Shown: one piece after another, positions 1,179-46,522 of the stretch
Layout: each line of letters begins with the position of its first letter
Position numbering within the stretch: position 1 is the stretch's first letter
DNA from: Holophagae bacterium
GTDB taxonomy: Bacteria; Acidobacteriota; Thermoanaerobaculia; Thermoanaerobaculales; Thermoanaerobaculaceae
Assembly (NCBI GenBank): GCA_012516935.1
Contig: JAAYVZ010000013.1
Location: forward strand, 1-46,980
Reading direction: 5' to 3'
DNA length: 46,980 nucleotides
Notes under the pieces: model-generated
The model's database searches: none
Seen by the model: the letters and a program-made list of their open reading frames with translations, nothing else
Told to the model about the DNA's origin: nothing
Position numbers and translations under genes: made by a program

Positions 1179-4100
1179 GTGAGCCCCTCGCAGCCCCCTC
1201 GCGACGCGATCGACGCCGACCTCCAGTTCTGTCTCCTGGCGGTCCGGCGCGGGCTCGTGGACCGGCGGCTGCTCGTGTCGTTGGCTGCCGTGCACGGCCT
1301 GGAACCAGGTGCGGTGCTGCGCCGGGCGATGGAGTGCGCCGTCGAGCTGAGCCCGCATCAGGTCGCCGGGCTCGAGGCCGAGCTTGCGAAAGGCGGCGAC
1401 CAAGAGCAGCTCGTCGCGCTGCTCGAACACCTCAAGACCGCCCTCGCTGAAGCCTCCTCGCCGACCGTCGGCGATGTCCCCGTGGCCCATGCCCGGCCAA
1501 CCGCACCGCCGGTGCCGACCGACCAGCCGTGGAGGGTCACGGCCGAAAGCCCGGGACGCTACCACTTCCCGAGTGGCGACCCGGGTCTCGCCGAGATCGG
1601 CCGCGGCGGCATCGGGCGGGTGCTCGTGGTGCACGACGCCCACCTCGGACGCGACGTCGCGCTCAAGGAGCTGCTGGTCCCTGGCGGCGTCGCTCCTTCA
1701 GAGATGTCCGATGACGGCCGTGGCGGGCTTTCGGGGGCGCCCCTCACCACGAGGCGGTTTCTGCGCGAGGCGCAGGTTACGGGGCAGCTCGAGCACCCGG
1801 GGATCGTGCCGGTGTACGAGCTGGGCGCCCGCCCGGACGGCACGCTGTACTACACGATGAAGCTGGTGCGGGGGCGGACACTCGCCCAGGCACTGTTGGC
1901 TTGCAAGCGGATCGAGGACCGCCTGCGGCTGCTTCCTCATTTCGTCAACCTTTGCCACGCCGTCGCCTACGCCCACAGCCGCGGGGTCATCCATCGCGAC
2001 ATCAAGCCCGCCAACATCATGCTCGGGGAGTTCGGTGAGACGGTACTGCTCGACTGGGGCTTGGCCACGATCCGCGGCACCTCCGACCTCCACGGTGAGC
2101 CGCTGGCGCGAAGCGCCGAGCTGGGTCACGGTGCTTTGGAAGGCCTCACCGTCGACGGCGTCGCCGTCGGCACACCGCAGTACATGAGCCCGGAGCAGGT
2201 CATGGGCGACTCGTCCAACCTCGACGCCCGGGCCGACGTGTGGGCACTCGGGGTGGTGCTCTACCAGATCCTCACCGGCACCGTTCCGTTCGTCGGCAGC
2301 ACTCCCGTCGAGGTCATGCACAACGTCCTCACCCAGCCGCTGGTGCCGCCGCGGCAGCACGACCGGGCAGTGCCGCGCGAGCTCGCCTCCATCTGCGTGC
2401 GAGCGCTCGCCCGGCAGCCGGCCGACCGCTTCCCCTCGGCCCGCGAGCTGTGCGAGGAGGTCGAGGCGTACCGCGCCGGCCATCTGGTCGGCTCGCACCG
2501 CTACACGCGGTGGGAGCTGGCCCAGCGCTTCGCCACCCGCCACCGCGCCACTTTGGCTGCCGGGCTGGCGGTGCTGGCCGTGGTGCTCGTGGCCCTCGGG
2601 GTGGTAACCGCGTCGTGGCGCGGTGAGCGCACTGCCCGGCAGCAGGAGGCCGAGGCCAGGGCCACGGAGCGCGCACAGCGGCTGGAAACCAGCTTCCGTC
2701 TCGCGCAGGGGCTCGCCGAGCGCGCCGCGCGGCTGACCCGCGACCGGGCGCTGCTGGATGCCAGGATCTTTGCGGCCGCCTCGTGGCTCGCCAACCCGGC
2801 GGCGGAGCGAGATGCAGCGGCCCGCGAGCTGCTCGCCCGCCGACCGGAGGCCGCCGACGCGGTTCTTGGTGCCCGCTCCCGCTACTTCCAGGCCAGCGTC
2901 GGTGCCGTCGCCTCGTTGATCGCCTCCGTCGAGGTCGGAGCGCCGCTGCTAGCGGTTGCGGTGGCTCCGGAGGGCAGCCGTGTGGCCACCGGCAGCAGCG
3001 ACGGCGGCATCGTCCTCTGGGATGCGGCAAACGCCCGCCGCTTGGCGATGCTTCGGGCCGTCGACGAGGTGCGCGACCTCGCATTCTCCCCCGACGGGCA
3101 GCACTTGGTCGCGGTCACCCGCAACGGCCGAGCGGAGTGCTGGGAGCTCGCGCGGGGCAGGCGCCTGTGGAGCACCCGCACCGACGAAGGCGAGGTCAAC
3201 GCCGTGGTGTACGCGCCGGACGGCGGGGTGATCGTCACCGGTGGGCGCGACGGCGTGCTCCGCCTCTGGAGCGCCGGTGACGGCGCCGGACTGGGCGAGC
3301 TCGGGCGCCACCCGGCAGCGGTCCACGATTTGGCTGCGACCGGTGGCGGCCTCGGACCGCGGGTCGCTTCCGCCAGCCGCGACCACACCGTGCGGGTGTG
3401 GGACCTTGCGCACCGGCGCTTGGTCACCACGCTCGAGGGTGCGGCCTCGGTGGTCCGCGGCGTGGCGCTGGACCGGAGCGGCGAGCTGGTGGCCGCTGTC
3501 TCCCACGACAAGTCCGCGCGGGTGTGGGAGCTGCCCTCGGGTCGACCGCGTCTGGTGGCGGGAGGGTTCGAGGACGAGATGCTCTCGGTTGCACTCGCGC
3601 CCGACGGGGGCCGGCTGGCCGCCGCCGGGTGGGATGGGCGGGTGACGATCTGGGACATCGGCGCCGCTGTACCGCTGATCGCCATCACCCACCAATCGCC
3701 GGTCTGGGCGGTGGCGATGGGGCAGGGCGGCCGTCTCCTCGCAACCGTCACCGAGGATGGGCGTCTCCGGATCTGGAACCTCTCCGATACCCAGCCGGTG
3801 CTCGCCGCACCCGAGCGTTCCTTCGTGTGGTCGCTCGATCTCTCGCGGGACGGGAGGTGGGCTGCTCTCGCCGGTACCGACGGTGGAATCCGTCTCCACG
3901 ACCTGGCCTCCCAGGCCCCTGGCCGCGAGCTGCGCGGCCACCGCGACATCGTCGGCACCGTGGCCTTCTCGCCTGCTGGTCAGCTGCTCGCCAGCTCGGG
4001 GTTCGACGGCACGGTGCGGCTGTGGGAGGTTCCCTCCGGCAGGCCAACAGCGTTGCTTCGGGGACACGTCGGGTTCGTGCGGACGGTCACGTGGTCGCCG

Positions 4101-11429: not shown

Positions 11430-12477
11430 GTATCAGCGCCACGGGAACGTAGATCGGGTCGCCCGTGACGTTATCGACCACCGAGGCGTAGGCGAGGAAA
11501 GCCCCGCCGGTCGTGAGGGTGCGAACGCGCAGGTAGCCCCCGTTGACCGACTCCTGCGTGACCCGCTCGAACACCTTGTTGAGCTGGGTGAACTCGTACG
11601 TCTTCAGCTCCACCACTTGGACCCCCAACGGAGTACCGAGAGGGCCATGGAATCTCACCTCCACGCGGATCGGAGCCGGGCTCGTGCTCAGCAGGCCGAG
11701 GTTGGTACGAAAGCCTTGCGTCGGGTTCGGATCATGGAACAGCCCCACGAGCCGGCCCTCCCGCCCGAACGGTATGGCTTGGGCGTCCGGAATCCCCGGC
11801 ACGAACTGACCGAAGCTGCCCGATGCGAGCTGGTTGTAGGTCCGACTTTGGACCACCAGCGGGCCGCCGACCGGCGTAATTCGCAGCGCCGCAGCTCCCT
11901 CGAAGCCGAAGGGGTCGAAGACGATGTCAGCATGGTGGGCCGAGCGCTCCCCGTTGAGCGTGTACACCATGGTCTGCGCCTGCCGGTTATCGGTGTCGCG
12001 CTTGAGGAGACTGATGTGGTACGTCACTTTGGTCGATCCTGGGTTGTGCACCTCGAGATCGGTCCGCCACACAGTCTGGTTGTAACCCGGCTGATGCGCA
12101 CCGGTGCACACCCAGATGTGCTGCTCCGAAGACACCGCAGCAACCGTTATCTGCACCGTGCCCGAGACCTTCGCTCCGTCAGCCGTGCCGCTCCCGCTCA
12201 CCGTGAAGGTGCCGGCACCGGCGTAGGTATGCTTGAGCTCATTGCAGCCGCCCAACATGCCGCATCCCAGCGAGTAGGTCAGCGTCGCCGAACCGCCGTC
12301 ACCGAAGTCGAGCGTCACCGCGTCGCCCTCGCGCTTGACTGCGGGGCTGAACCGGAACCTGACCTCCTCACCCACCAGCGCGCTCGCTGGCGACGGGATG
12401 ATGCTGAGAGTGTCGCCGGCCGACACCAGCGAGCCGAGCCCAAGCATCAGCACCCCAACCATCCATCGTCCTCGCAC
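11413..12477 (-). CDS. Secreted protein with PKD-like domain and C-terminal WRTDL module
   Basis: Function unknown. The product has 354 residues from GTG 12477, which follows AGGAGG; an ATG five codons later (12462) is an equally good start. A signal peptide (VGVLMLGLGSLVSA) leads into a PKD/Ig-like domain at about 25-110, containing LDFGDGGS and YAGAGTFTVSGSG. Residues from about 118 to the end form a module that recurs twice in the NHL protein at 38021-42208, with shared landmarks AHQPG, WRTDL, SRTYNQ, GSFGQ, FRTNLGLL, AYASVVDN and a final DP-x-YVPV. The module has no recognised catalytic motif and looks like a beta-rich surface domain. The gene sits alone on the minus strand between a TPR gene and a regulator gene. 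Confidence 0.75.
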   Translation of the reverse strand: MRGRWMVGVLMLGLGSLVSAGDTLSIIPSPASALVGEEVRFRFSPAVKREGDAVTLDFGDGGSATLTYSLGCGMLGGCNELKHTYAGAGTFTVSGSGTADGAKVSGTVQITVAAVSSEQHIWVCTGAHQPGYNQTVWRTDLEVHNPGSTKVTYHISLLKRDTDNRQAQTMVYTLNGERSAHHADIVFDPFGFEGAAALRITPVGGPLVVQSRTYNQLASGSFGQFVPGIPDAQAIPFGREGRLVGLFHDPNPTQGFRTNLGLLSTSPAPIRVEVRFHGPLGTPLGVQVVELKTYEFTQLNKVFERVTQESVNGGYLRVRTLTTGGAFLAYASVVDNVTGDPIYVPVALIPTGLP

Positions 12478-12690
12478 GTCGCCTCCTGCGCCTTCGGCTG
12501 CGCCGACTTCGCTCCGAGCACAGCCCGATAGCTGAAAGCAGTATCGTACCTGAGATGGGGGCATGCCGTGACGTGGCACACAGCGGCTGCGAGCGCCGTG
12601 CCCGATATGGTCCGCAACGCGGCGCCAGCCTGCGGCAACGATGCCACCCAACGGACGACCGTCGCTGCTGTGGTTCCGAGACGCTGCCGG

Positions 12691-13611
12691 CTACGAAGCG
12701 GACGGGGGACCGGGGACGGTCTTCACCACCGCGACGACCTCCCGCCCGCAGTCGCGGTACTCGAGCTCGTCGAAGCTCATGGTCTTGGCGATGAGGATGC
12801 CGCGCCCGTGGGTGTCGAACAGCCGTGCCGGGTCGACGCGAAGGTATGGCTCCGGATCGAACCCCCGGCCCTGGTCGCGGATCGTCACCGTGACGCTTTC
12901 GGTACGCCGCTCGAGCTCGACCACGACGACACGCACGCCGAGTGCGGGGTCGGCGAGCCGGCGCTCGATCTCGCCCTTCCAGCCTCCGATCTCTTCGAGT
13001 CGACCTTTGTCGTCGTACGAGAGCTCGAGGTTGCCGTGCTCCACCGCGTTGACCAGCAGCTCCGACAGGCCGATCAGCACCCGATCCGGATCCGGGAAAG
13101 CGCGGGCCAGGAACGCCCCCAGGTCCATCGCCTCGACCAGGGTTCGGAACTCGAACCGCCCAATCCGCAAGAGGTTGAGGGCCCCGGCCTGCTTCCGGAG
13201 CTCATCACGGAGGGTCTTGACACGAGCGTAGTCCGCCGCCGCGGCTCGCACGATCGAGCGCAGCATCTCCTTGCGGAACGGCTTCGTGAGGTAGTAGTAG
13301 GCTCCGGCCTGGAGCCCCTCGAGCACCTCGCGCTGGTCGGCAGCGCTGGTCTGCATGATCACCGGCAGGGCCTCGAACCGTTCCTCGGCACGGATCCGCT
13401 GCAGGAGCTGGATGCCGTTGAGGCGGGGCATCATGCGGTCGAGCAGGATGACGTCGAACTCGCCGGGATGGGCCGAGAGCACCTCCCACCCCGCCTGGCC
13501 GTCGTGGGCTGTCGTGATCTCGACCGGCATCCCGTCCAGGTACTCGAGGATGATCTCGACGGCGATCGGGTCGTCGTCGACCACCAGCACCCGGGTCGGG
13601 GTTCCGATCAT
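12691..13611 (-). CDS. Response regulator receiver fused to RsbW-like ATPase domain
   Basis: A 306-residue regulator. Residues 1-125 are a receiver domain: acidic pocket D12-D14, phosphoacceptor D58 in LLDRMMP, T88 and K110 (LTKPF). Residues about 165-300 are a GHKL/HATPase domain with the N-box LSELLVNAVEHGN (E184, N188), the DQGRG motif at D246 and GRGI at 269-272. There is no histidine phosphotransfer helix, so the ATPase half is of the anti-sigma-factor kinase (RsbW/SpoIIAB) type rather than a histidine kinase. The likely role is phosphorylation-controlled partner switching of a sigma factor or anti-anti-sigma factor. No sigma factor, STAS protein or cognate histidine kinase lies in the window. 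AGGAGG lies two bases before the ATG, which is unusually close. Confidence 0.88.
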   Translation of the reverse strand: MIGTPTRVLVVDDDPIAVEIILEYLDGMPVEITTAHDGQAGWEVLSAHPGEFDVILLDRMMPRLNGIQLLQRIRAEERFEALPVIMQTSAADQREVLEGLQAGAYYYLTKPFRKEMLRSIVRAAAADYARVKTLRDELRKQAGALNLLRIGRFEFRTLVEAMDLGAFLARAFPDPDRVLIGLSELLVNAVEHGNLELSYDDKGRLEEIGGWKGEIERRLADPALGVRVVVVELERRTESVTVTIRDQGRGFDPEPYLRVDPARLFDTHGRGILIAKTMSFDELEYRDCGREVVAVVKTVPGPPSAS

Positions 13612-38020: not shown

Positions 38021-41000
38021 CTACCTCCGCATCGGCAGGGTCGTCGGGTCCGTGGAGAGGTTGTCGACGACCGAGCCCGAGGCCTGGATCCCCTCTCCGA
38101 CCTCGACCGTCACCTTCGCGTACGCTGCTCCGAGATCGTTGCGGCCGGCCACGGTCTTGAACGGCTGATTGGCCTGGCTGCGCTGCCCGGGCTTGAGGGT
38201 ACCCTTTTCCACCAGGTATTGCCCGATCTTGCTGCCGTCGCCGGCGAACAGCTCGACCTTCACCCGCGCATCCACGGGGCCGGTGTTGGCGACGAGGATG
38301 TTCGAGCGGTACGAGTCGTTCTGGACGAGCTGGGGGATGTACGCCGACTGCCCTGCGCCCAGCCCCTCGTCGACCGTGAAGGCGTCGTAGTCCTGGCCGA
38401 ACGTACCCCTGGACTGGCTCTGGTTGTACGTTCGCGAGGTGACGATCACCGAGACATCCGGCACCACCTGCAGCGCCCCGGCGTCGTCGTGCGACGTGAG
38501 CTTGCGGACGATGTCGGTGAGAATGAGCTGGTTGTGCGGTGGCACCTCGACCCGGGACTCGAGCGTCGTCTTGCCGTAAAAGCGCAAGGTCACCAGGGAC
38601 TTCACCGAGTGGATGTTGAGCAGGCCGAGATCGGTCCGCCAGCTCGTACCCCCGATTCCGTCCTGATGGGCCACCACCGGCAGCCAGAACGGCTCAGCAC
38701 CGAACACCTCCTCCTTCATGAGCACGGACGTGGGGTCGTTGGAGGCGACGTTGTTGTCCACCACCGAGGCGTAGGCGATCACGCCGTCGCCTTCCAGGAC
38801 CTCGAGCCGGGCGTAGCCGGCCGCGAGATCGCTCTGGCCCACCGCCCTGAACGGGGCGTTGAGCTGCACCCGCTGGCCGGAGGCGATCGGCGCGCCGCCG
38901 TTGACGGAGGGCTCGCCGACCTTGGTGCCGGCCCCGTCGAACAGCTCCAACCGTACCCTGGCTGCGGTGCTGCCGGTATTGGCAATCAGGATATTGCTGC
39001 GATACGAAGCGTTCTCGCTGAGATGCGGCAGGAAGACCGCACCTCCAGCCGCGACCCCCTGGTCGCTCCTGAAACCGTCGTAGCTCTGTCCGAACGTCCC
39101 CGACGCGCTCTGGTTGTAGGTGCGGGAGGTCACCACCAGCGGCTGGTCGGTGAGGATTTCGAGCGGTCCAGCACCAACCGCGGCGAACACCGTACCGACG
39201 ACGTCGACGAGGATTTTCTGCTCGCCCTTGGCGATCGTCGTCGACTGCCCGAGCAGCGTGCCAACGTGCAGCCGTAGGTGCACGACGCCGCTCGCGGGCC
39301 CCAGGTTGAGCAGGCCGAGGTCGGTCCGCCACTGGCTGCCGGCCGCACCTGGCTGGTGGGCGGCCACCGGGATCCAGTACTGGCGGTAGCGGATCGGCAC
39401 CTTGTTCTGGCACTCCGAGCTGCATCCCTGGGCGTTGGTGACCGCGACTTTGATGCCGACCTCACCGCTCGGCCCGGCAGTGAAGGTGATCGAGCGGGTC
39501 CCCGCCCCGGCGGTAACGGTGCCGTTGGTGAGCGTCCAAAGGTAGGTCGCACCTGGGCCGGCGTCGCTCACCGAGGCCTGGTTGCCCGCGCTGTTGGGGG
39601 TCACGAAATCGGGTCGGCTCACCGCCGCCGAGGGCGGAGCGACCACGGTCACCGTCGCACTCCCACCGACGCTGCCGATACCTGTGGCGTCAGCCACCGT
39701 AGCGAGGGTGTACACGGTGGTCGCGGCCGGCGTCACGACGCGGGTCGCCGGGCTCGCCACGATGCCCTCCTGCACGAACCCATCGCTCCAGCTCACGCGC
39801 CACGGGGCCGTACCGGTGAGCACCACCTGCAGCGTCGCCGCGGCGTCGCGACAGATCGTCGTGCTGCCAGACAACGTCGCGGTCGCGCCGGCAGAAATAC
39901 CCACCGTGCTGATGTTCCTGCCGGTGGCGCTGGCGGCCTCGAGACGGAAGAGGAAGAGCTCCGAGCGGTCCGGCGTGAACGTGGGGTTGCGGATGGTGGT
40001 CGACGAGAGCGTGGCCGTGGAGGTCGCTGGCTGGCGAACGATCGACCACCGCCAGGAGGTCGCGGTCTGTGGAGCGGTATCGAGCTGACGTTGCTCACCG
40101 GGCACCGCCACCGGCGAGTCCACCACCGCGACGTCGACGAGTGCCGCCTCACCCCGCCGGATGGCGTTGTTGCCGCGGTCCGCGACCCACACCACGCCGT
40201 CCGCGGTCACGGCCAGACCTGCCGGCTCCTCGAAACGGGCCGCTGGGCCGGAGGCATCGGTGCTACCCGAGGCCCCAGCCAGCCCGGCGACCGTCGTTAC
40301 CCGACCGTCCGAGGTGATCAGGCGCAGCGTGTGGTTGCCGGTATCGGCAACCCAAATCCGGCCACCGGCGTCGATCGCCACGTCCGTGGGCTCGAAAAAA
40401 CGCGCCGCGCTTCCTATCCCATCCGCACCGCCGGCCTGGCCAGCCAGCCCAGCGACCGTCGTCACCTGGCCGCCGGGCGTCATGCGCCTGACGGTGTGGT
40501 TGCCCGAATCGGCGATGTAGAGATTGCCCGCGCGGTCGAACGCCAGGCCGTGAGGCGAGCGGAAACGGGCTGCTACCCCGACCCCATCCGCAACTCCGGA
40601 CTGCAGCGCCACTCCCGCGACCGTCGTCACCTGGCCATCCGTACCGATACGCCGGATCGTGTGGTTGGCGCCGTCGGCGACCAGCACCGATCCGTCGGCC
40701 GCCACGGCAACGCCGAGCGGGAAGTTGAAACGGGCGGTCGCGGCTGGCCCATCGGTCCCGCCTCGCATCCCCGGAGTGCCGGCGAGCGTGGTCACCGTGC
40801 CATCGGCGCTCACGCGTCTGACCACGTGGTTGTCGGAGTCCGCGACGACTGCAGCCCCGTCGAGGGCGGACGCCAACCCGACCGGGCTCGCGAAGCGCGC
40901 CGCGGCTCCGGTGCCGTCCACCCAGCCAGACACGCCGCCCAGGCCGGCCACGGTCGTCACTGCCCCCGCGGCCGTTACCAACCGGATGGTATGACCGACG

Positions 41001-42208
41001 GCGTCGGAGACCCAGAACGAGGTGTCGCTCGCCGTGCGTAGCCCGTGAGGGTGATCGAACCGTGCCGCCGCCCCACTGCCGTCGGCCCACCCTGCCCCGC
41101 CCGGCAGCCCGGCGAAGGTGGTGACGGCACCGGTACCGGTGATCCGCCGCACGGTGTGATTCCAGGTGTCAACGACCCATACCGACGAGCCGTCGGTGGC
41201 CGAGACGAGCCCGGCGGGATACCAGAACCGTGCCGCGACGCCGGTCCCATCGAGGTTGCCAGCCAACCCGGCCTGGCCGGCGAAGGTAGTGACCTCGCCA
41301 CCAGCAGATACCCGTCGGATCGTGCTGTTGCTCGTGTCGGCGACCCACAGCGCGGTGCTGTCGACCGCCACCGCACCGGGAAAGAAGAACCGCGCCTCGG
41401 CGCCGGTGCCGTCGATGGCGCCGATCGTCCCGGCTTTGCCCACGAACGTGGACACGGCACCGCTCGCGGTCACCCGCCGGATGGTGCAGTTGCGGGTGTC
41501 GGCCACCCAGACCACGCCGCTGCCGTCGACAGCCAGACCGGTCGGGTAGTAAAAGCGCGCCGCCTCGCCGGTACCGTCGCTCGAGCCACTCCTGCCGAGC
41601 TGGCCAGCCAGCGTTGAGACCACACCCTCCTGGGTCACCCGACGGATCGCGTGGTTTTTGGCATCGGCTACCAGCAGCGTGCCATCGGCAGCGATAGCGA
41701 TGCCGGAGGGCTCGGCAAACCGGGCCTCGGCGCCGGTCCCGTCAACCCCCCCGGCGACGCCGGCACTGCCGGCCAGGGTCGTGACGCGCCCGTCCGGGTC
41801 GATTCGCCGCAGCGTGTGGTTGCCCGTGTCCACCACGAAGATCCGCCCGGTACTATCGACGGCCAGTGCCCGCGGCTTGTTGAAGCGCGCCGCCGCACCG
41901 ATCCCGTCGAAGCTGCCCTTGAGCCCTGCAACTCCGGCCAGCGTGGCGACTTTGCCATCGGCGGTGATCTTGCGGATGGTGTGATTGTCGGTGTCGGCGA
42001 CGAAGAGGTTGCCTGCGGCGTCGCGGGCGATGCCGGCCGGCTTGAAAAACCGGGCGGCTGGACCCGAGCCGTCCTCGCTCCCGTACCCTCCCGGGCTGCC
42101 CGCCACGTGCGACACCGTCAGCGTCTGCGCCGATGACGGTCCGGTCACCACCACGACGCCAACGGCCACCATTGCGGCTACGAGGATCTTGTGAGTGCCT
42201 CCGATCAT
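38021..42208 (-). CDS. Secreted NHL-repeat protein with Ig-like region and two WRTDL modules
   Basis: A 1395-residue exported protein. A signal peptide (VAVGVVVVTGPSSA) is followed by 12 NHL-type repeats of about 55 residues (about residues 30-690), each with DGxG-AARF, a P-x-G, VADT-NHTIRR and VTTLAG; twelve repeats fit two six-bladed propellers. A region of about 250 residues with Ig/PKD-like strands follows (about 690-940). The last 450 residues are two copies of a module (plus coordinates about 38712-39380 and 38024-38690) also found at the end of the gene at 11413-12477. GGAGGGGGC precedes ATG 42208. No catalytic motif; NHL propellers bind proteins, nucleic acids or glycans. Probably a surface or extracellular protein. 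Confidence 0.82.
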   Translation of the reverse strand: MIGGTHKILVAAMVAVGVVVVTGPSSAQTLTVSHVAGSPGGYGSEDGSGPAARFFKPAGIARDAAGNLFVADTDNHTIRKITADGKVATLAGVAGLKGSFDGIGAAARFNKPRALAVDSTGRIFVVDTGNHTLRRIDPDGRVTTLAGSAGVAGGVDGTGAEARFAEPSGIAIAADGTLLVADAKNHAIRRVTQEGVVSTLAGQLGRSGSSDGTGEAARFYYPTGLAVDGSGVVWVADTRNCTIRRVTASGAVSTFVGKAGTIGAIDGTGAEARFFFPGAVAVDSTALWVADTSNSTIRRVSAGGEVTTFAGQAGLAGNLDGTGVAARFWYPAGLVSATDGSSVWVVDTWNHTVRRITGTGAVTTFAGLPGGAGWADGSGAAARFDHPHGLRTASDTSFWVSDAVGHTIRLVTAAGAVTTVAGLGGVSGWVDGTGAAARFASPVGLASALDGAAVVADSDNHVVRRVSADGTVTTLAGTPGMRGGTDGPAATARFNFPLGVAVAADGSVLVADGANHTIRRIGTDGQVTTVAGVALQSGVADGVGVAARFRSPHGLAFDRAGNLYIADSGNHTVRRMTPGGQVTTVAGLAGQAGGADGIGSAARFFEPTDVAIDAGGRIWVADTGNHTLRLITSDGRVTTVAGLAGASGSTDASGPAARFEEPAGLAVTADGVVWVADRGNNAIRRGEAALVDVAVVDSPVAVPGEQRQLDTAPQTATSWRWSIVRQPATSTATLSSTTIRNPTFTPDRSELFLFRLEAASATGRNISTVGISAGATATLSGSTTICRDAAATLQVVLTGTAPWRVSWSDGFVQEGIVASPATRVVTPAATTVYTLATVADATGIGSVGGSATVTVVAPPSAAVSRPDFVTPNSAGNQASVSDAGPGATYLWTLTNGTVTAGAGTRSITFTAGPSGEVGIKVAVTNAQGCSSECQNKVPIRYRQYWIPVAAHQPGAAGSQWRTDLGLLNLGPASGVVHLRLHVGTLLGQSTTIAKGEQKILVDVVGTVFAAVGAGPLEILTDQPLVVTSRTYNQSASGTFGQSYDGFRSDQGVAAGGAVFLPHLSENASYRSNILIANTGSTAARVRLELFDGAGTKVGEPSVNGGAPIASGQRVQLNAPFRAVGQSDLAAGYARLEVLEGDGVIAYASVVDNNVASNDPTSVLMKEEVFGAEPFWLPVVAHQDGIGGTSWRTDLGLLNIHSVKSLVTLRFYGKTTLESRVEVPPHNQLILTDIVRKLTSHDDAGALQVVPDVSVIVTSRTYNQSQSRGTFGQDYDAFTVDEGLGAGQSAYIPQLVQNDSYRSNILVANTGPVDARVKVELFAGDGSKIGQYLVEKGTLKPGQRSQANQPFKTVAGRNDLGAAYAKVTVEVGEGIQASGSVVDNLSTDPTTLPMRR
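38024..39380 (-). repeat. Two tandem copies of the WRTDL module (DNA of the NHL gene 3' part)
   Basis: Copy 1 spans about 39380-38712 and copy 2 about 38690-38024. Both contain, in order, WRTDLGLLN, SRTYNQ, GTFGQ, YRSNIL, ANTG and SVVDN. They differ in most other residues, so this is an old duplication rather than a recent one. The third copy lies at about 12120-11416. Confidence 0.75.
40145..42120 (-). repeat. Twelve NHL-coding tandem repeats, about 165 bp each
   Basis: The repeat unit encodes roughly 55 residues beginning at an AG-x(2)-G-x-DG motif and ending at VTTLAG. All 12 units are imperfect and share the AARF, ADT-N and IRR positions. Periodicity is regular with no frame break. Confidence 0.85.
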
Positions 42209-42589
42209 GCCCCCTCCACTTCTGAGCCTGGCCTCGACAAGCGCCGCGACCGACGCCACCTCGAGGGAAAGACAGCATACCCTCCCGTCCCGTGACCCGA
42301 CCTTCATTCGTACGCCAGCCGTTCGCCGATCGTTGGTGAGCCTGCTCACGCCAGCGACCGCGTCTCGCCCACGCCGCCGAGACCCTCGAGCTGCGGCACC
42401 TCGAGCTCGCCAGCCTCGCGGGGCGGCCGTACCGGCTGGACCTGGCACCCCGGCTCGACGGCGTGTGGCTGCCGAACGACCTGCTGCTGCCGCCAGGGGT
42501 ACCTGGCCACCACCGAGCCGAGGTGTGCCTCTCCCGCTGACCCCGTCCGCGTTCCCAGCTTTGCGTGGGTTCGTCGGGTCGGCGCCGTA
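42209..42589. other. 381-base gap between NHL gene and ogt
   Basis: Contains the NHL gene's upstream region with TATGCT on the minus strand (plus coordinates 42274-42279), a possible -10 about 65 bases from its ATG, and a plus-strand stretch at 42340-42540 with coding-like base usage (listed separately). No complete gene is seen. Confidence 0.5.
42340..42540 (+). pseudogene. Coding-phase fragment ending in TGA, possible 3' gene remnant
   Basis: From the TGA at 42337-42339 to the TGA at 42538-42540 there is an open plus-strand frame of 66 codons with third positions nearly all G or C and an AT-richer second position, as in the real genes around it. The translation reads like protein (LELRHLELASLAG, RLDGVWLPNDLLLPPG). 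No ATG begins it and no family was recognised. It may be the tail of a deleted gene. The other two plus frames do not show this pattern. Confidence 0.3.
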
Positions 42590-43162
42590 CTACCCGAACA
42601 GACTCCCCTGCTCGCCGTTGCGGCCCGCCTCCGGCAAGCCGGGCGGACGAGCGCCCTCCCACTCGAGCAGGAAGCGCTTGATATCGAGCCCGCCGCCGTA
42701 GCCCACCAGCTTGCCCGAAGCGCCCACCACCCGGTGGCACGGCACCACGATGGCGATCGGGTTGGCACCGTTGGCGTGCCCCACCGCCCGCACCGAGCGC
42801 GGATTCCCCAGCCGGCGGGCGAGATCGCCGTAGGTCACGGCATGGCCGTAGGGGATGCGCTGCAGCTCGTGCCACACCCGGAGCTGAAACGGCGTGCCGA
42901 GCAGGTGCAGGGGCAGCTCGAAAGCGCGCCGCTGCCGGGTGAAGTACTCCTCGAGCTGGCGTTCGACGCTTCCGCAGCGCCCGTCGTCCCACTCGACCGG
43001 CGGCCCACCCGCCAGCTCGGCTTCGATCTGTGCCCGCGTACGACCGCGGGCAAACTCCAGCCGGCGCAAGGCGCCGCTTTCCTCGACCACCGCCAGCAGC
43101 GCCCCCACCGGGCTCGGGAAGAGACTCGCCGCCAGGGTTCCGCTGCCGCGTGAGTCGCTCAT
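42590..43162 (-). CDS. ogt: Methylated-DNA--protein-cysteine S-methyltransferase (O6-alkylguanine)
   Basis: Removes methyl groups from O6-methylguanine in DNA by transferring them to its own cysteine. The 190-residue protein has the MGMT fold: an N-terminal domain (about 1-85), then GTPFQLRVWHELQRIPYGHAVTYGDLARRLG (helix-turn-helix, arginine finger region) and the active-site motif PCHRVV with C142, followed by GYGGGLDIKRFLLEWE. The chain also ends with a short Gly/Glu-rich tail. GGAGGTGGG lies before the ATG. It is transcribed divergently from the alcohol dehydrogenase gene, with 48 bases between start codons. The symbol reflects the Ogt-like length; Ogt and MGMT (AdaB) are not easily told apart. 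Confidence 0.93.
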   Translation of the reverse strand: MSDSRGSGTLAASLFPSPVGALLAVVEESGALRRLEFARGRTRAQIEAELAGGPPVEWDDGRCGSVERQLEEYFTRQRRAFELPLHLLGTPFQLRVWHELQRIPYGHAVTYGDLARRLGNPRSVRAVGHANGANPIAIVVPCHRVVGASGKLVGYGGGLDIKRFLLEWEGARPPGLPEAGRNGEQGSLFG

Positions 43163-43184
43163 CGCCCACCTCCGGAGACCTCCC

Positions 43185-43201
43185 AGTGTACGCGATAGAA
43201 T
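43185..43201. promoter_or_regulatory. Overlapping divergent -10 candidates between ogt and the dehydrogenase gene
   Basis: TAGAAT at 43196-43201 (plus) ends nine bases before the dehydrogenase ATG, predicting a nearly leaderless mRNA. TACACT on the minus strand (43190-43185) lies 22 bases before the ogt ATG. Neither has a clear -35. Both -10 boxes lie within 17 bases, so RNA polymerase could not bind both at once. Confidence 0.35.
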
Positions 43202-43210
43202 CGTGCCAGG

Positions 43211-44215
43211 ATGCCACCGTCGACGATGCTGGCCATGGTCCTCGACGCCCCCGGGCAGCCGCTGTCGGCGCGGGAGCTGCCGCTCCCCGAGCCCGGACCG
43301 GGCGAGGTGTTGGTGCGCGTCTCGGCATGCGGGGTGTGTCGCACCGACCTCCACCTCGCAGACGGTGAGCTGCCCGAGCCCAGGCTCCCGATCGTCCCCG
43401 GCCACGAGATCGTCGGCACCGTCGAAAGCCCAGGCGCTGGAACGAGCGGCTTCGCCCTCGGCGACCGCGTTGGCGTACCGTGGCTCGGCGCCACCTGCGG
43501 CACCTGCCCGTCATGCCGGAGCGGCCGCGAAAACCTCTGCGACCGGCCGCTGTTCACCGGTTACACGCGCGACGGTGGGTTTGCCGAGTGGGCGGTGGCC
43601 GACGCCCGCTACTGCTTCCCGCTTCCGGATGGCTACGACGACGTCGCTGCCGCACCGCTGCTGTGCGCCGGCCTCATCGGCCACCGCGCCTACCGCCTGG
43701 CCGGGGATCTCGCCGCGAGCCTCGGAATCTACGGGTTCGGCGCCGCTGCCCACATCGTGGCCCAGATCGCCGTGGCCGAAGGCAGGGAGGTGTATGCCTT
43801 CACCCGGCCCGGCGACACGGCGGCGCAGGAGCTGGCGTCTCGCCTCGGGTGCGCCTGGGCCGGAGGCTCCGACCAGCTGCCACCCGTGCCGCTCGACGCC
43901 GCCATCATCTTCGCGCCGGTCGGCGCCCTCGTCCCCGCCGCCCTCGGGGCCGTCGGCAAGGGCGGTACCGTGGTCTGCGGCGGAATCCACATGAGCGACA
44001 TCCCGGCGTTCCCTTACCGCCTCCTGTGGGAAGAGCGCGTGCTGCGCTCGGTGGCCAACCTCACCCGTCAGGACGGTTTCGAGCTGCTCGCCACCGCAGC
44101 CCGCCACCGCATCCGCACCGAAACCACCGTCTACCCGCTCCTCGACGCCAACCGCGCCCTCGACGACCTGCGGTCGGGCCGTCTCGTCGGCGCCGCCGTG
44201 CTCCGCGTCCGGTAG
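43211..44215 (+). CDS. Zinc-dependent alcohol dehydrogenase (MDR superfamily)
   Basis: An NAD(P)-dependent medium-chain dehydrogenase of 334 residues that interconverts alcohols and aldehydes. Catalytic zinc ligands C43 (GVCRTDLH) and H65-E66 (PGHEIVG) and the structural zinc set C96, C99, C102 and C110 (CGTCPSCRSGRENLC) are complete. The Rossmann motif appears as GIYGFGAAAH, and the FTRPG segment after beta-strand 2 suggests NADPH- or NADH-binding without deciding. It resembles AdhA-type enzymes (zinc-binding alcohol dehydrogenase, Mycobacterium-like). ATG 43211 has no strong Shine-Dalgarno, but a -10 element ends nine bases upstream. The stop TAG is directly followed by the stop (TCA on plus) of the convergent acyltransferase gene. 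Confidence 0.9.
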   Translation: MPPSTMLAMVLDAPGQPLSARELPLPEPGPGEVLVRVSACGVCRTDLHLADGELPEPRLPIVPGHEIVGTVESPGAGTSGFALGDRVGVPWLGATCGTCPSCRSGRENLCDRPLFTGYTRDGGFAEWAVADARYCFPLPDGYDDVAAAPLLCAGLIGHRAYRLAGDLAASLGIYGFGAAAHIVAQIAVAEGREVYAFTRPGDTAAQELASRLGCAWAGGSDQLPPVPLDAAIIFAPVGALVPAALGAVGKGGTVVCGGIHMSDIPAFPYRLLWEERVLRSVANLTRQDGFELLATAARHRIRTETTVYPLLDANRALDDLRSGRLVGAAVLRVR

Positions 44216-44839
44216 TCACTCGGCGTCGCGCAGCTCGGAGACCGCTGCCTCGAGCGCGGCCAGGATCTCGTCGCGGGTACCGGTGGGGTGCAGCGGCGGG
44301 CCGAGGCGCACCTCAGCGAAGAACGGCACCGGCAGGACCGTGCCCTTGGGCAGGGAGCGCCCGAGGTTGACGAGGTAGGCGGGGACGATCGGCACCTCGG
44401 GGCACGCCTCGGCGAGATGGGCCACGCCGGGCAGGAAGCGGCCCGGCTCGCCGTTTTGCCCGCGCGTGCCCTCGGGGAACAAGATGAGCGACTCCCCCAC
44501 CGCGAGCGCGGCGCGCATGACCGCAAGCGGGTTGTTGGCCCTGGTGACCTTGCGGCGGGCCACCGGCAGGATGTTGAACAGCGTCCGCGAGACCCACGCT
44601 CGCGCCTTCCCTGCCAGGAAATAGTCGGCCGCGGCGACCGGACGGATCCGCCCGAGGCGCCGCAGCGGAAAAAGCGAGAGCAACGCCACCGTGTCGAGGT
44701 GTGAGGTGTGGTTGGCGATCAGCACGAACGGGTCGGCCGCCGGCAAGTGCTCCCGCCCGCGCACGCGCAGCCCGATGAACAGCGTCAGAAACGGCCGCAC
44801 CAGCGCCGCGAAGAACACCGCTTGCAGGGCCCGCCTCAT
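44216..44839 (-). CDS. 1-acyl-sn-glycerol-3-phosphate acyltransferase family (PlsC-like)
   Basis: Transfers an acyl chain to lysophosphatidic acid or a related lysolipid at the inner membrane. The 207-residue product has the HX4D motif NHTSHLD (H44, D49) and FPEGTRG (121-127), plus a hydrophobic N-terminal segment. Its length is typical of the short PlsC group. It lies 130 bases downstream of the YnbB-type cytidylyltransferase gene and the YnbA-type phosphatidyltransferase gene on the same strand, so it likely supplies or remodels the phosphatidic acid for them. Whether it is the main PlsC of the cell or a side enzyme is unknown. Shine-Dalgarno is weak (GGATGGGTGG). Confidence 0.85.
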   Translation of the reverse strand: MRRALQAVFFAALVRPFLTLFIGLRVRGREHLPAADPFVLIANHTSHLDTVALLSLFPLRRLGRIRPVAAADYFLAGKARAWVSRTLFNILPVARRKVTRANNPLAVMRAALAVGESLILFPEGTRGQNGEPGRFLPGVAHLAEACPEVPIVPAYLVNLGRSLPKGTVLPVPFFAEVRLGPPLHPTGTRDEILAALEAAVSELRDAE

Positions 44840-44969
44840 CCACCCATCCTACCGCTCTCACCCGGTCGAAAGTCGAGGGTCGAAGGCCGGCGGAGGGCGG
44901 TTCGCCGGTGCTCCGTCCCCAGGCAGATCCGAGGGGGCCGGGGGTCTCTCGACTCGTGGGGAGCGGGGG

Positions 44970-45905
44970 TCAGTAGCAGGCCCAGTAGACGTAGTGAAAA
45001 AACAGCGGCACCGACCAACACAGGGAGTCGACCCGGTCCAGCATCCCGCCGTGGCCGGGGATGAGGGCGCCGAAGTCCTTGACCCCGAAGTCGCGCTTGA
45101 CCGCCGACATGACCGCTCCGCCGAGGAAACCGGCCACGCACACCCCGAGCGCCACGAGCACCGTCTGCAGCGGGGCGAACGGGGTCAGAAACCGCAACGG
45201 CCAGGCGAGCAGCGCCGCCGAGAGCACCCCGCCCACCAGCCCCTCCCACGTCTTGTTGGGGCTCACCGTGGGCAGCACCTTGTGGCGCCCGACGAGCTTG
45301 CCCCAGACGTACTGGAGCACGTCGGACATCTCGACCACGAAGACCACGAACAGCACCAACGCCCGGCCGTCCGCGGTGCGGCCTGGCAGCGCTGGGAGCT
45401 GCAGCAGGTATCCGAGGTGCGAGAGCCCGAACACGAACGCCATGAGCCCCCAGTGGATCTGCGACGCCGAGGCGACGAACCCCTTGGTCTCCCGGGCCAC
45501 CACCAGCGTCACCGGAAGCAACAGGAACACATAGACCGGGATGAAGATGATGAACACCCCGTACCATTTGATGTGGACCAGCCAGTACTGTGCCGGCACC
45601 GCGGCGAACGCCCAGAACAACGTCGCGTGATCCTGCGGCCGCGTCCTCAAGAGGGTGACGTACTCCTTGAGCGCCCAGAAGCTCATGAGGGCGAAGACGA
45701 CGAGCGAGACGGCGGGATGCACCGCAACCGCACCCAAGAACACCGCGGCCATCACCCACCACGCCTTGACCCGGTCCGCAAGCTCGTCCCAGCGGCCCTC
45801 GGGACGGAGCCACCGCAGCAGCCACACGACGAGTGTCGAGACCACGAGCAGCCCGAGCACCACCGCCGACATGGTCAGCACCGGGGTCAGCGGCGGAACG
45901 GTCAC
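44970..45905 (-). CDS. ynbB: Phosphatidate cytidylyltransferase family, YnbB-type
   Basis: Makes CDP-diacylglycerol from CTP and phosphatidic acid in the inner membrane. The 311-residue protein has about eight helices and the complete CdsA signature S-AVKRD-FGVKD-FGALIPGHGGML-DR-VD near the C-terminus. From memory of E. coli YnbB, the overall features (WGLMAFVFGLSHLGYLL, LVLFVVFVVEMSDVLQYVWGK, the ending FFHYVYWACY) agree better with YnbB than with housekeeping CdsA. The GTG start at 45905 overlaps the stop of the phosphatidyltransferase gene as GTGA and follows GGGAGGGGGC. Its place beside a YnbA-type gene supports the assignment, though this match is by recall, not alignment. Confidence 0.85.
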   Translation of the reverse strand: MTVPPLTPVLTMSAVVLGLLVVSTLVVWLLRWLRPEGRWDELADRVKAWWVMAAVFLGAVAVHPAVSLVVFALMSFWALKEYVTLLRTRPQDHATLFWAFAAVPAQYWLVHIKWYGVFIIFIPVYVFLLLPVTLVVARETKGFVASASQIHWGLMAFVFGLSHLGYLLQLPALPGRTADGRALVLFVVFVVEMSDVLQYVWGKLVGRHKVLPTVSPNKTWEGLVGGVLSAALLAWPLRFLTPFAPLQTVLVALGVCVAGFLGGAVMSAVKRDFGVKDFGALIPGHGGMLDRVDSLCWSVPLFFHYVYWACY

Positions 45906-46522
45906 GCCCCCTCCCGGGCCAACAGCTCGGCGAGGGCGGCTCGCAGGCGGTTCCAGCAGGTCACGGCGGAGAGGATCGCCGCCGCGCCCAGCACCCATTC
46001 CCAAGCCGCGAGCGACCGCGGCCACGCCACGGCGACCACCGCCAGCAGCCCGACCAGCAGCGCCCGGTCCGACTTACCCATCGGCCCCTCGTAGTGCCGG
46101 CGTGCTCCCAGCGCTTGTCCGAGCACGCCGCTCATCTCGGTGAGCACCGCCCCGAGCGCGAAGGCGACCACCACCCACGCCGCGCCGGGGCGCACCGCCG
46201 CCAGCGGCAGGTAAAGCGCGAGGTCGGAGAGCACGTCGCCCATCTCGTTGAGCACGCCGCCCAGTCGGGTGACCATCTCGTGCTCGCGCGCCAGCATCCC
46301 GTCGAGGGCGTTGAGCGCCATGCGCATCAGCAGCCAGACTGGGAGCCCGAGCAGCCAGAGCGGCCGGTGCGAGGCGAGCAGCACCGAGGCTCCAACGGCA
46401 ACCGAGCCGACCAGCGCTCCGACCGTGAGATGGTTCGGCCGCACCCCGGCGCGGGCCATCCCGCCGACGAGCGGCCGCAGCAGCTTCTGGAAGCGCGTCT
46501 TGAGGTCGTAGACGGAGGGCAT
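45902..46522 (-). CDS. ynbA: CDP-alcohol phosphatidyltransferase, YnbA-type with two Asn substitutions
   Basis: A membrane enzyme of 206 residues that would transfer the phosphatidyl group from CDP-diacylglycerol to an alcohol. The family motif D1xxD2GxxAR...GxxxD3xxxD4 appears as N71-AL-D74-GMLAR...G88-GVL-N92-EMG-D96, so D1 and D3 are asparagine. These acids bind the two metal ions in most members. I recall the same N...D...N...D arrangement in E. coli YnbA (ALNALDGMLARE...LNETGDVISD), which suggests a subfamily trait rather than damage. GKSDRAL also agrees with YnbA. The ATG shares one base with the TGA of the upstream DUF3592-like gene (TGATG), and the end overlaps the YnbB-type gene. Head-group alcohol unknown. 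Confidence 0.85.
   Translation of the reverse strand: MPSVYDLKTRFQKLLRPLVGGMARAGVRPNHLTVGALVGSVAVGASVLLASHRPLWLLGLPVWLLMRMALNALDGMLAREHEMVTRLGGVLNEMGDVLSDLALYLPLAAVRPGAAWVVVAFALGAVLTEMSGVLGQALGARRHYEGPMGKSDRALLVGLLAVVAVAWPRSLAAWEWVLGAAAILSAVTCWNRLRAALAELLAREGA

Follow-up and report, generated by a model that had tools for sequence, protein, structure and literature searches.

What does a CDP-alcohol phosphotransferase (CDP-AP) do once two of its four metal-binding aspartates have become asparagines: is it a broken gene, or an enzyme of another kind? CDP-APs make the major phospholipids in all domains of life. The question is raised by a minus-strand gene cluster at the end of a 46,980-nucleotide stretch of Holophagae bacterium contig JAAYVZ010000013.1 (assembly GCA_012516935.1, phylum Acidobacteriota), which was analysed as a whole and is referred to here as the window. 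The CDP-AP of this cluster is of the type of Escherichia coli YnbA, and its four metal-site positions read Asn-Asp-Asn-Asp (NDND, here "N/N") in place of the canonical four Asp (DDDD). The cluster comprises the following genes:

46522-45902, minus strand: ynbA-type CDP-AP with the NDND motif, 206 amino acids (PF01066, 38.1 bits against a cut-off of 22)
45905-44970, minus strand: ynbB-type CdsA-like cytidylyltransferase with a GTG start, 311 amino acids (PF01148, 219.9 bits against a cut-off of 24)
44839-44216, minus strand: PlsC-type acyltransferase, 207 amino acids (PF01553, 73.8 bits against a cut-off of 23)

Judged from sequence, the exchange recurs in coordinated form across relatives; a widespread lipid pathway accounts for this better than a broken gene does.

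The N/N motif and the residues coupled to it

The signature of the CDP-AP family, D1xxD2GxxAR...GxxxD3xxxD4, is described with Asp at all four places (PMC4634129, PMC6506517; papers are cited from excerpts throughout). The window protein reads N71xxD74G75xxA78R79...G88xxxN92xxxD96, so that Asn stands at positions 1 and 3 and D74 and D96 are retained, as the initial annotation had described. Positions are compared below with MtPgsA1, a phosphatidylinositol phosphate (PIP) synthase. The residues of the motif region are encoded as follows:

46322-46324, minus strand: codon of R67, located four positions ahead of N71; all N/N proteins have Arg here (89/89), canonical ones Ala, Gly, Ser, His or Cys
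46310-46312, minus strand: codon of N71, at the position of metal-binding Asp 1 (MtPgsA1 D68 by profile alignment); Asn in 89/89
46247-46249, minus strand: codon of N92, at the position of metal-binding Asp 3 (MtPgsA1 D89); Asn in 89/89
46244-46246, minus strand: codon of E93, directly after N92; acidic in all N/N proteins, corresponding to MtPgsA1 A90 in the acceptor pocket
46235-46237, minus strand: codon of D96, the retained Asp 4 and presumed catalytic base (MtPgsA1 D93); 89/89

Our alignment of 89 YnbA-type proteins combines the window protein with E. coli YnbA, with seven relatives that genome searches had returned and with the 80 best loci of a genome-collection scan, which hit at least 587 encoding relatives. 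These 80 span 12 named phyla; 58 belong to Pseudomonadota, and 2 have no assignment. R67, N71, D74, N92, E93, D96, R153 and R192 were invariant in all 89 proteins, as were G75, A78 and G88, and the four-Asp signature was found in none. A simple degenerate copy had been the expectation of the initial annotation if homologues mostly carried Asp at these positions; since Asn stands at both in 89/89 proteins, the exchange is not decay, and degeneration of a single copy is ruled out. Automated motif extraction returned apparent exceptions (10 NDEV, 1 NDEI and 4 unparsed of the 89), which proved to be regular-expression misreadings at a double Gly or at RMAF, RMAA or RMG variants, the alignment columns being N/N throughout.

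The scan pattern, RMALNAxDG, pre-selects N71, whereas neither N92 nor E93 formed part of any pattern. As a pattern-free control, profile searches were run over 396 genomes of the window's phylum. They recovered 12 genomes with a YnbA-type protein and 5 more with a distant N/N subfamily (NMLDGMVA...NExPD), and all motifs read in these 12 and 5 genomes were NDND. When a profile built from the distant subfamily was used instead, the same five genomes came back (E < 1e-85); among 30 loci read from this second search, 15 were NDND and 15 DDDD. An artefact of the search pattern is therefore ruled out as the cause of the conservation. At E 0.01, Pfam gave no match for L017, which belongs to the distant subfamily. 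One fragmentary locus (L134) lacked the motif; a reverse-strand shadow match (in L127) was set aside.

Two further positions change together with the asparagines and were not part of the initial annotation. Arg occupies the place four residues before position 1 in 24/24 unique N/N proteins and in 0/51 unique DDDD proteins, which have 35 Ala, 8 Gly, 6 Ser, 1 His and 1 Cys there. Directly after position 3, the N/N proteins have 23 Glu and 1 Asp (24/24 acidic), whereas none of the 51 canonical proteins is acidic (30 Pro, 11 His, 8 Ser, 1 Phe and 1 Ile). The resulting family motif, R-x3-N-x2-D-G...G-x3-N-[ED]-x2-D, appears in the window protein as RMALNALDG...GGVLNEMGD. No one-Asn intermediate (NDDD or DDND) was found among these 24 N/N and 51 DDDD proteins, although the pattern accepted either residue at position 1 and, separately, at position 3. 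Positions 2 and 4 had to be Asp, and other variants would therefore escape it.

In a phylogenetic tree of 63 proteins, built with columns 71, 92 and 93 removed (67 kept), a single branch divides the 37 N/N proteins from all the others. Because the support of this separating branch is only 82/45, a single origin of the exchange is graded as likely at most.

Predicted fold and active site compared with PIP synthases

The AlphaFold2 (AF2) model of the window CDP-AP (pLDDT 95.7, pTM 0.89) has the six-helix fold of the family, and its best matches in the PDB are PIP synthases (6h59_A, TM score 0.74; 5d91, Z 20.7, root mean square deviation 3.1 over 193 aligned residues). A profile alignment with MtPgsA1, with residues counted by hand on the printed alignment, gives the equivalences N71=D68, D74=D71, N92=D89, E93=A90, D96=D93, V97=R94, R153=R155 and R192=R195. 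The residues N30 and T33 of the cytosine (nucleotide) motif, whose role is described in PMC4634129, are also retained. Two arginines complete the site:

46064-46066, minus strand: codon of R153, predicted acceptor-phosphate Arg (MtPgsA1 R155 by alignment; 89/89; role from PMC4634129)
45947-45949, minus strand: codon of R192, predicted acceptor-phosphate Arg (MtPgsA1 R195 by alignment; 89/89; role from PMC4634129)

In MtPgsA1, D1, D2 and D3 together with the CDP-diacylglycerol (CDP-DAG) phosphates bind the first Mg, D3 and D4 bind the second, and D4 is the presumed base (PMC6506517). The acceptor phosphate is bound by R155 and R195, and with the R195Q change the Km for inositol phosphate rises about tenfold, from 122 to 1,208 uM; PIP synthases are stated to conserve this Arg pair (R153/R191 in RsPIPS), whereas eukaryotic phosphatidylinositol synthases do not (PMC4634129). 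R94 is critical for inositol phosphate, and the A90Y change impairs acceptor placement (PMC6506517).

The window protein thus resembles PIP synthases (MtPgsA1, RsPIPS) in fold, cytosine motif, D2, D4 and the Arg pair, and it differs from MtPgsA1 in having Asn for D1 and D3, Glu for A90, Val for R94 and Arg four residues before position 1. In the predicted site, the nucleotide site, Asp 2, the base and the phosphate clamp are kept, two metal-1 carboxylates are lost, and an acceptor-side Glu and an Arg one turn from N71 are gained. Arg at position 153 separates the two groups of the tree set (37/37 N/N against 0/26 canonical proteins).

The protein falls short of the NCBIfam equivalogs for PIP synthase (NF045883; 46.5 bits, cut-off 170), archaetidylinositol phosphate synthase (AIPS; NF040950; 76.9 bits, cut-off 180) and PgsA (19.1 bits, cut-off 109.1), the second being its best NCBIfam score. 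The closest canonical proteins in the tree, here termed AIPS-like, differ from the N/N proteins in having DDDD, His after Asp 3 and no Arg at position 153.

Linkage with YnbB, PlsC, YnbC and YnbD

The minus-strand open reading frames (ORFs) and their Pfam matches agree with the initial annotation of a CdsA-like gene overlapping the CDP-AP gene and followed by a PlsC-like gene. The GTG start of the ynbB-type gene overlaps the ynbA-type gene by 4 nt, and 130 nt separate its stop from the PlsC-type gene, whose product shows HxxxxD and FPEG motifs by eye. Elsewhere, the genome encodes one other CdsA (L179, distinct from the ynbB type), two other PlsC-type genes and four other CDP-APs, every one of them canonical DDDD. 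Because these other genes are present, the cluster supplements the housekeeping route. Of the "uncommon phospholipid side-branch" proposed initially, the side branch therefore stands, whereas "uncommon" does not fit a family of this number and phylum range.

This association extends well beyond the window. A CdsA-type gene lies within about 1.5 kb of 17/21 unique N/N genes and 1/51 canonical genes (Fisher 7e-12), and a PlsC-type gene within the same distance of 14/21 and 0/51 (Fisher 4e-10), both without correction for relatedness. The sole canonical DDDD gene of the set with such a CdsA-type neighbour is that of locus L161. All six neighbourhoods of the distant subfamily that were read contain both a CdsA-type and a PlsC-type gene. 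Within 6 kb at 88 ynbA loci, some of them on short contigs, both types were found at 64, the CdsA type at 71, and YnbC and/or YnbD at 47; 2 loci had none of these.

Loci without an adjacent ynbB followed the same pattern at genome scale. Where ynbB is missing from the ynbA locus, the genome carries a full-length gene of the YnbB type (45-48% identity) elsewhere in 14/14 cases, and matches to the canonical CdsA are separate and mostly confined to its C-terminal half. PlsC adjoins the remote YnbB-type gene in 5/5 regions read, and in two Rhizobium regions an N/N gene of the distant subfamily adjoins it as well. Across the 396 genomes, YnbB-type genes were found in 16/17 N/N genomes and 0/379 others (relatedness uncorrected), at a cut-off of E 1e-30 that was set before the result was seen and at which the weakest counted match (7.5e-31) sits. 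The one N/N genome outside the cut-off (G346, 84% complete) nevertheless has a CdsA-type gene adjoining its N/N gene (L154). In two Capnocytophaga loci (L080, L108), the YnbB-type neighbour is far more divergent than elsewhere (E about 1e-28).

YnbC is a hydrolase-methyltransferase (PF12146, PF12147), and YnbD combines a dual-specificity phosphatase domain (PF00782) and a PAP2 match that stays below threshold. YnbC was not found in the window's genome by a profile search that detects it in the E. coli control, nor was YnbD in a search run without a positive control. In Rhizobium region L183, both N/N subfamilies occur about 9 kb apart (2711-3388 and 12438-13046), one gene with PlsC and YnbB and the other with YnbC and YnbD. 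Seven ynbA loci, among them L059 (3840-7292) and others of its group, carry long ORFs that by eye resemble a fusion of lysophospholipid transporter and acyltransferase, perhaps a hint at lyso-lipid handling.

The initial annotation was right that E. coli pairs the same families, with the same Asn residues in YnbA. E. coli YnbA (b1408; L006:5622-6224) carries the NDND motif, shares 43% identity with the window protein and is directly followed by ynbB. The clusters differ in that the E. coli ynbA-ynbB-ynbC-ynbD cluster has ynbC and ynbD and no plsC, whereas the window has plsC. A match to ynbA was found in 4424/5426 complete E. coli genomes, about 1000 being without a near match, and IS1 interrupts the gene in two genomes (NZ_CP027118.1, NZ_CP103515.1).

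Around the cluster, the opposite-strand neighbour beyond the PlsC-type gene is a zinc alcohol dehydrogenase gene by Pfam, convergent with it, and the two stop codons abut directly at 44215/44216. At the other side, an ORF truncated by the contig end (46522-46980, minus strand) overlaps the ynbA start by 1 nt; it had no match in Pfam or NCBIfam, and a similar ORF stands upstream of ynbA in locus L008 (716-1501). Two more minus-strand ORFs were characterized by eye only: 42590-43405, with a PCHRV motif, resembles O6-alkylguanine-DNA methyltransferase, and 38021-42448 (1475 amino acids) has NHL-like repeats of the GNLFVADTDNHTIRKI type and C-terminal repeats of a different kind.

Possible reactions of the N/N enzymes and their significance

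Taking the genes, motif, conservation, predicted fold and linkage together, we hold it moderately probable that the YnbA type is a large family of catalytic, CDP-DAG-dependent phosphatidyltransferases whose metal site has been remodelled and whose acceptor is phosphorylated, and which form the last step of a dedicated PlsC-YnbB-YnbA route. The order of steps would follow from what is known of the partner families: the PlsC-type enzyme would acylate lyso-phosphatidic acid to phosphatidic acid, and the YnbB-type CdsA would convert this to CDP-DAG. The kept residues suggest that YnbA would then pass the phosphatidyl group on to a water-soluble acceptor, D96 serving as the base, and the kept Arg pair points to an acceptor that carries a phosphate. 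Because Asn replaces two metal-1 Asp, one of which also bridges to metal 2, we infer that R67 and/or E93 may perform some of the functions of metal 1. Changed metal chemistry is plausible from the residue exchanges, and YnbA might use one metal or bind metal more weakly. The acceptor would be unlike inositol phosphate. Where present, YnbD may remove the phosphate and YnbC may modify the lipid.

Several observations weigh against this reading. The searched literature contained no report of a measured activity of any N/N enzyme. R192 is also retained in 11/11 canonical AIPS-like proteins that lack Arg at 153, so that it is not specific by itself. The place of MtPgsA1 R94, which is kept as Arg in the distant N/N subfamily, is V97 in the window protein and Val, Ile, Ala or Leu in 31/31 YnbA-type proteins sampled, and because of this replacement the acceptor pocket is only partly like that of PIP synthases. 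At the place of R67, MtPgsA1 itself has Phe rather than a small residue, as counted by hand.

A more specific reaction is suggested by work on the glycolipid MPIase, a link that the initial annotation had not drawn. In E. coli, over-produced YnbB raises MPIase but cannot replace CdsA for growth; CdsA raises MPIase too, and extracts with CdsA8 convert CDP-DAG and GlcNAc-1-phosphate to GlcNAc-PP-DAG, the MPIase precursor (PMC6362211). The authors assign this step to CdsA/YnbB, leaving room for unknown factors (PMC6362211). A review describes YnbB as active for MPIase and not for phospholipid synthesis, and as a likely backup (PMC7018664). The window shares with this system a YnbB-type partner gene and CDP-DAG as donor; it differs in that the published reaction is placed on CdsA/YnbB, and "ynba" is absent from the main text of PMC6362211. 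YnbA is therefore an obvious candidate for the route to GlcNAc-PP-DAG. Elsewhere in the literature, disruption of ynbC led to polyphosphate accumulation in one E. coli background and not in Keio strains (PMC2435150), ynbB appears in the excerpts of PMC9068703 only as a listed regulated gene, and the passages found of the lipocone paper do not treat the N/N family. No paper on YnbA activity was found in the literature searched, subscription papers being outside its scope.

On this basis, YnbA could transfer phosphatidyl from CDP-DAG to a sugar-1-phosphate (GlcNAc-1-phosphate or another) to form sugar-PP-DAG, which we consider unlikely, though chemically coherent. A phosphate oxygen needs no deprotonation, fewer carboxylates would lower the repulsion of a doubly anionic nucleophile, and the site has lost two carboxylates while keeping its Arg phosphate clamp; YnbA also adjoins and co-occurs with YnbB. 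However, the retained D96 would have no proton to remove from such a nucleophile, and E93 adds charge on the acceptor side. MPIase is unchanged by ynbB deletion and is reported as essential (PMC6362211, PMC7018664), whereas ynbA and ynbB are dispensable in E. coli. Because many complete E. coli genomes gave no match to ynbA, YnbA cannot be the sole maker of MPIase. Moreover, most holders of the family are not enterobacteria, and no sugar-handling gene is among the gene groups common to many ynbA loci. The stronger proposal that the N/N proteins are a separate mechanistic class forming a phosphoanhydride (CDP-DAG + sugar-1-phosphate -> sugar-PP-DAG + CMP), with Arg67 replacing a metal that has been given up, is in our view quite unlikely.

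It is also unlikely that the N/N proteins are pseudoenzymes without transfer activity, acting as non-catalytic partners such as a liponucleotide sink or a regulator of YnbB. Asp-to-Asn changes at the metal site can be fatal, since exchanging D4 for Asn nearly abolishes the activity of MtPIPS (PMC4634129), and the strict co-occurrence with YnbB and the overlapping genes would suit a subunit. A dead site, however, would not need D2, D4, G75, A78, G88, the cytosine motif and the phosphate-binding Arg, all of which are invariant, and in one Rhizobium region an N/N gene that has a ynbC/ynbD of its own lies about 7.5 kb away from ynbB.

That the protein is an ordinary CDP-AP with an ordinary product, such as phosphatidylglycerol phosphate or PIP, and with Asn as neutral metal ligands is very improbable: it has a PIP synthase fold and several of the same kept residues, but it scores far under the equivalog cut-offs, its genome already has four canonical CDP-APs, and a neutral replacement would not call for four coupled exchanges.

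At the sequence level, the N/N enzyme cluster is real, conserved and widespread. In a superfamily with a four-Asp metal site for its signature, a widely spread family has dropped two of the four in a fixed pattern, kept the other machinery and travels with its own CDP-DAG synthase. Most E. coli genomes hold a member, whose product was not reported in the literature searched. The family thus offers a simple genetic handle on the lipid and lets metal use in the CDP-AP fold be studied as a natural experiment. It also connects, in a way that can be tested, to MPIase-type glycolipids, whose first step is unsettled. If the phosphoanhydride proposal were true, YnbB would be a dedicated CDP-DAG supplier and YnbA the missing transferase, and diacylglycerol pyrophosphate would be a widespread bacterial glycan carrier beside undecaprenyl pyrophosphate.

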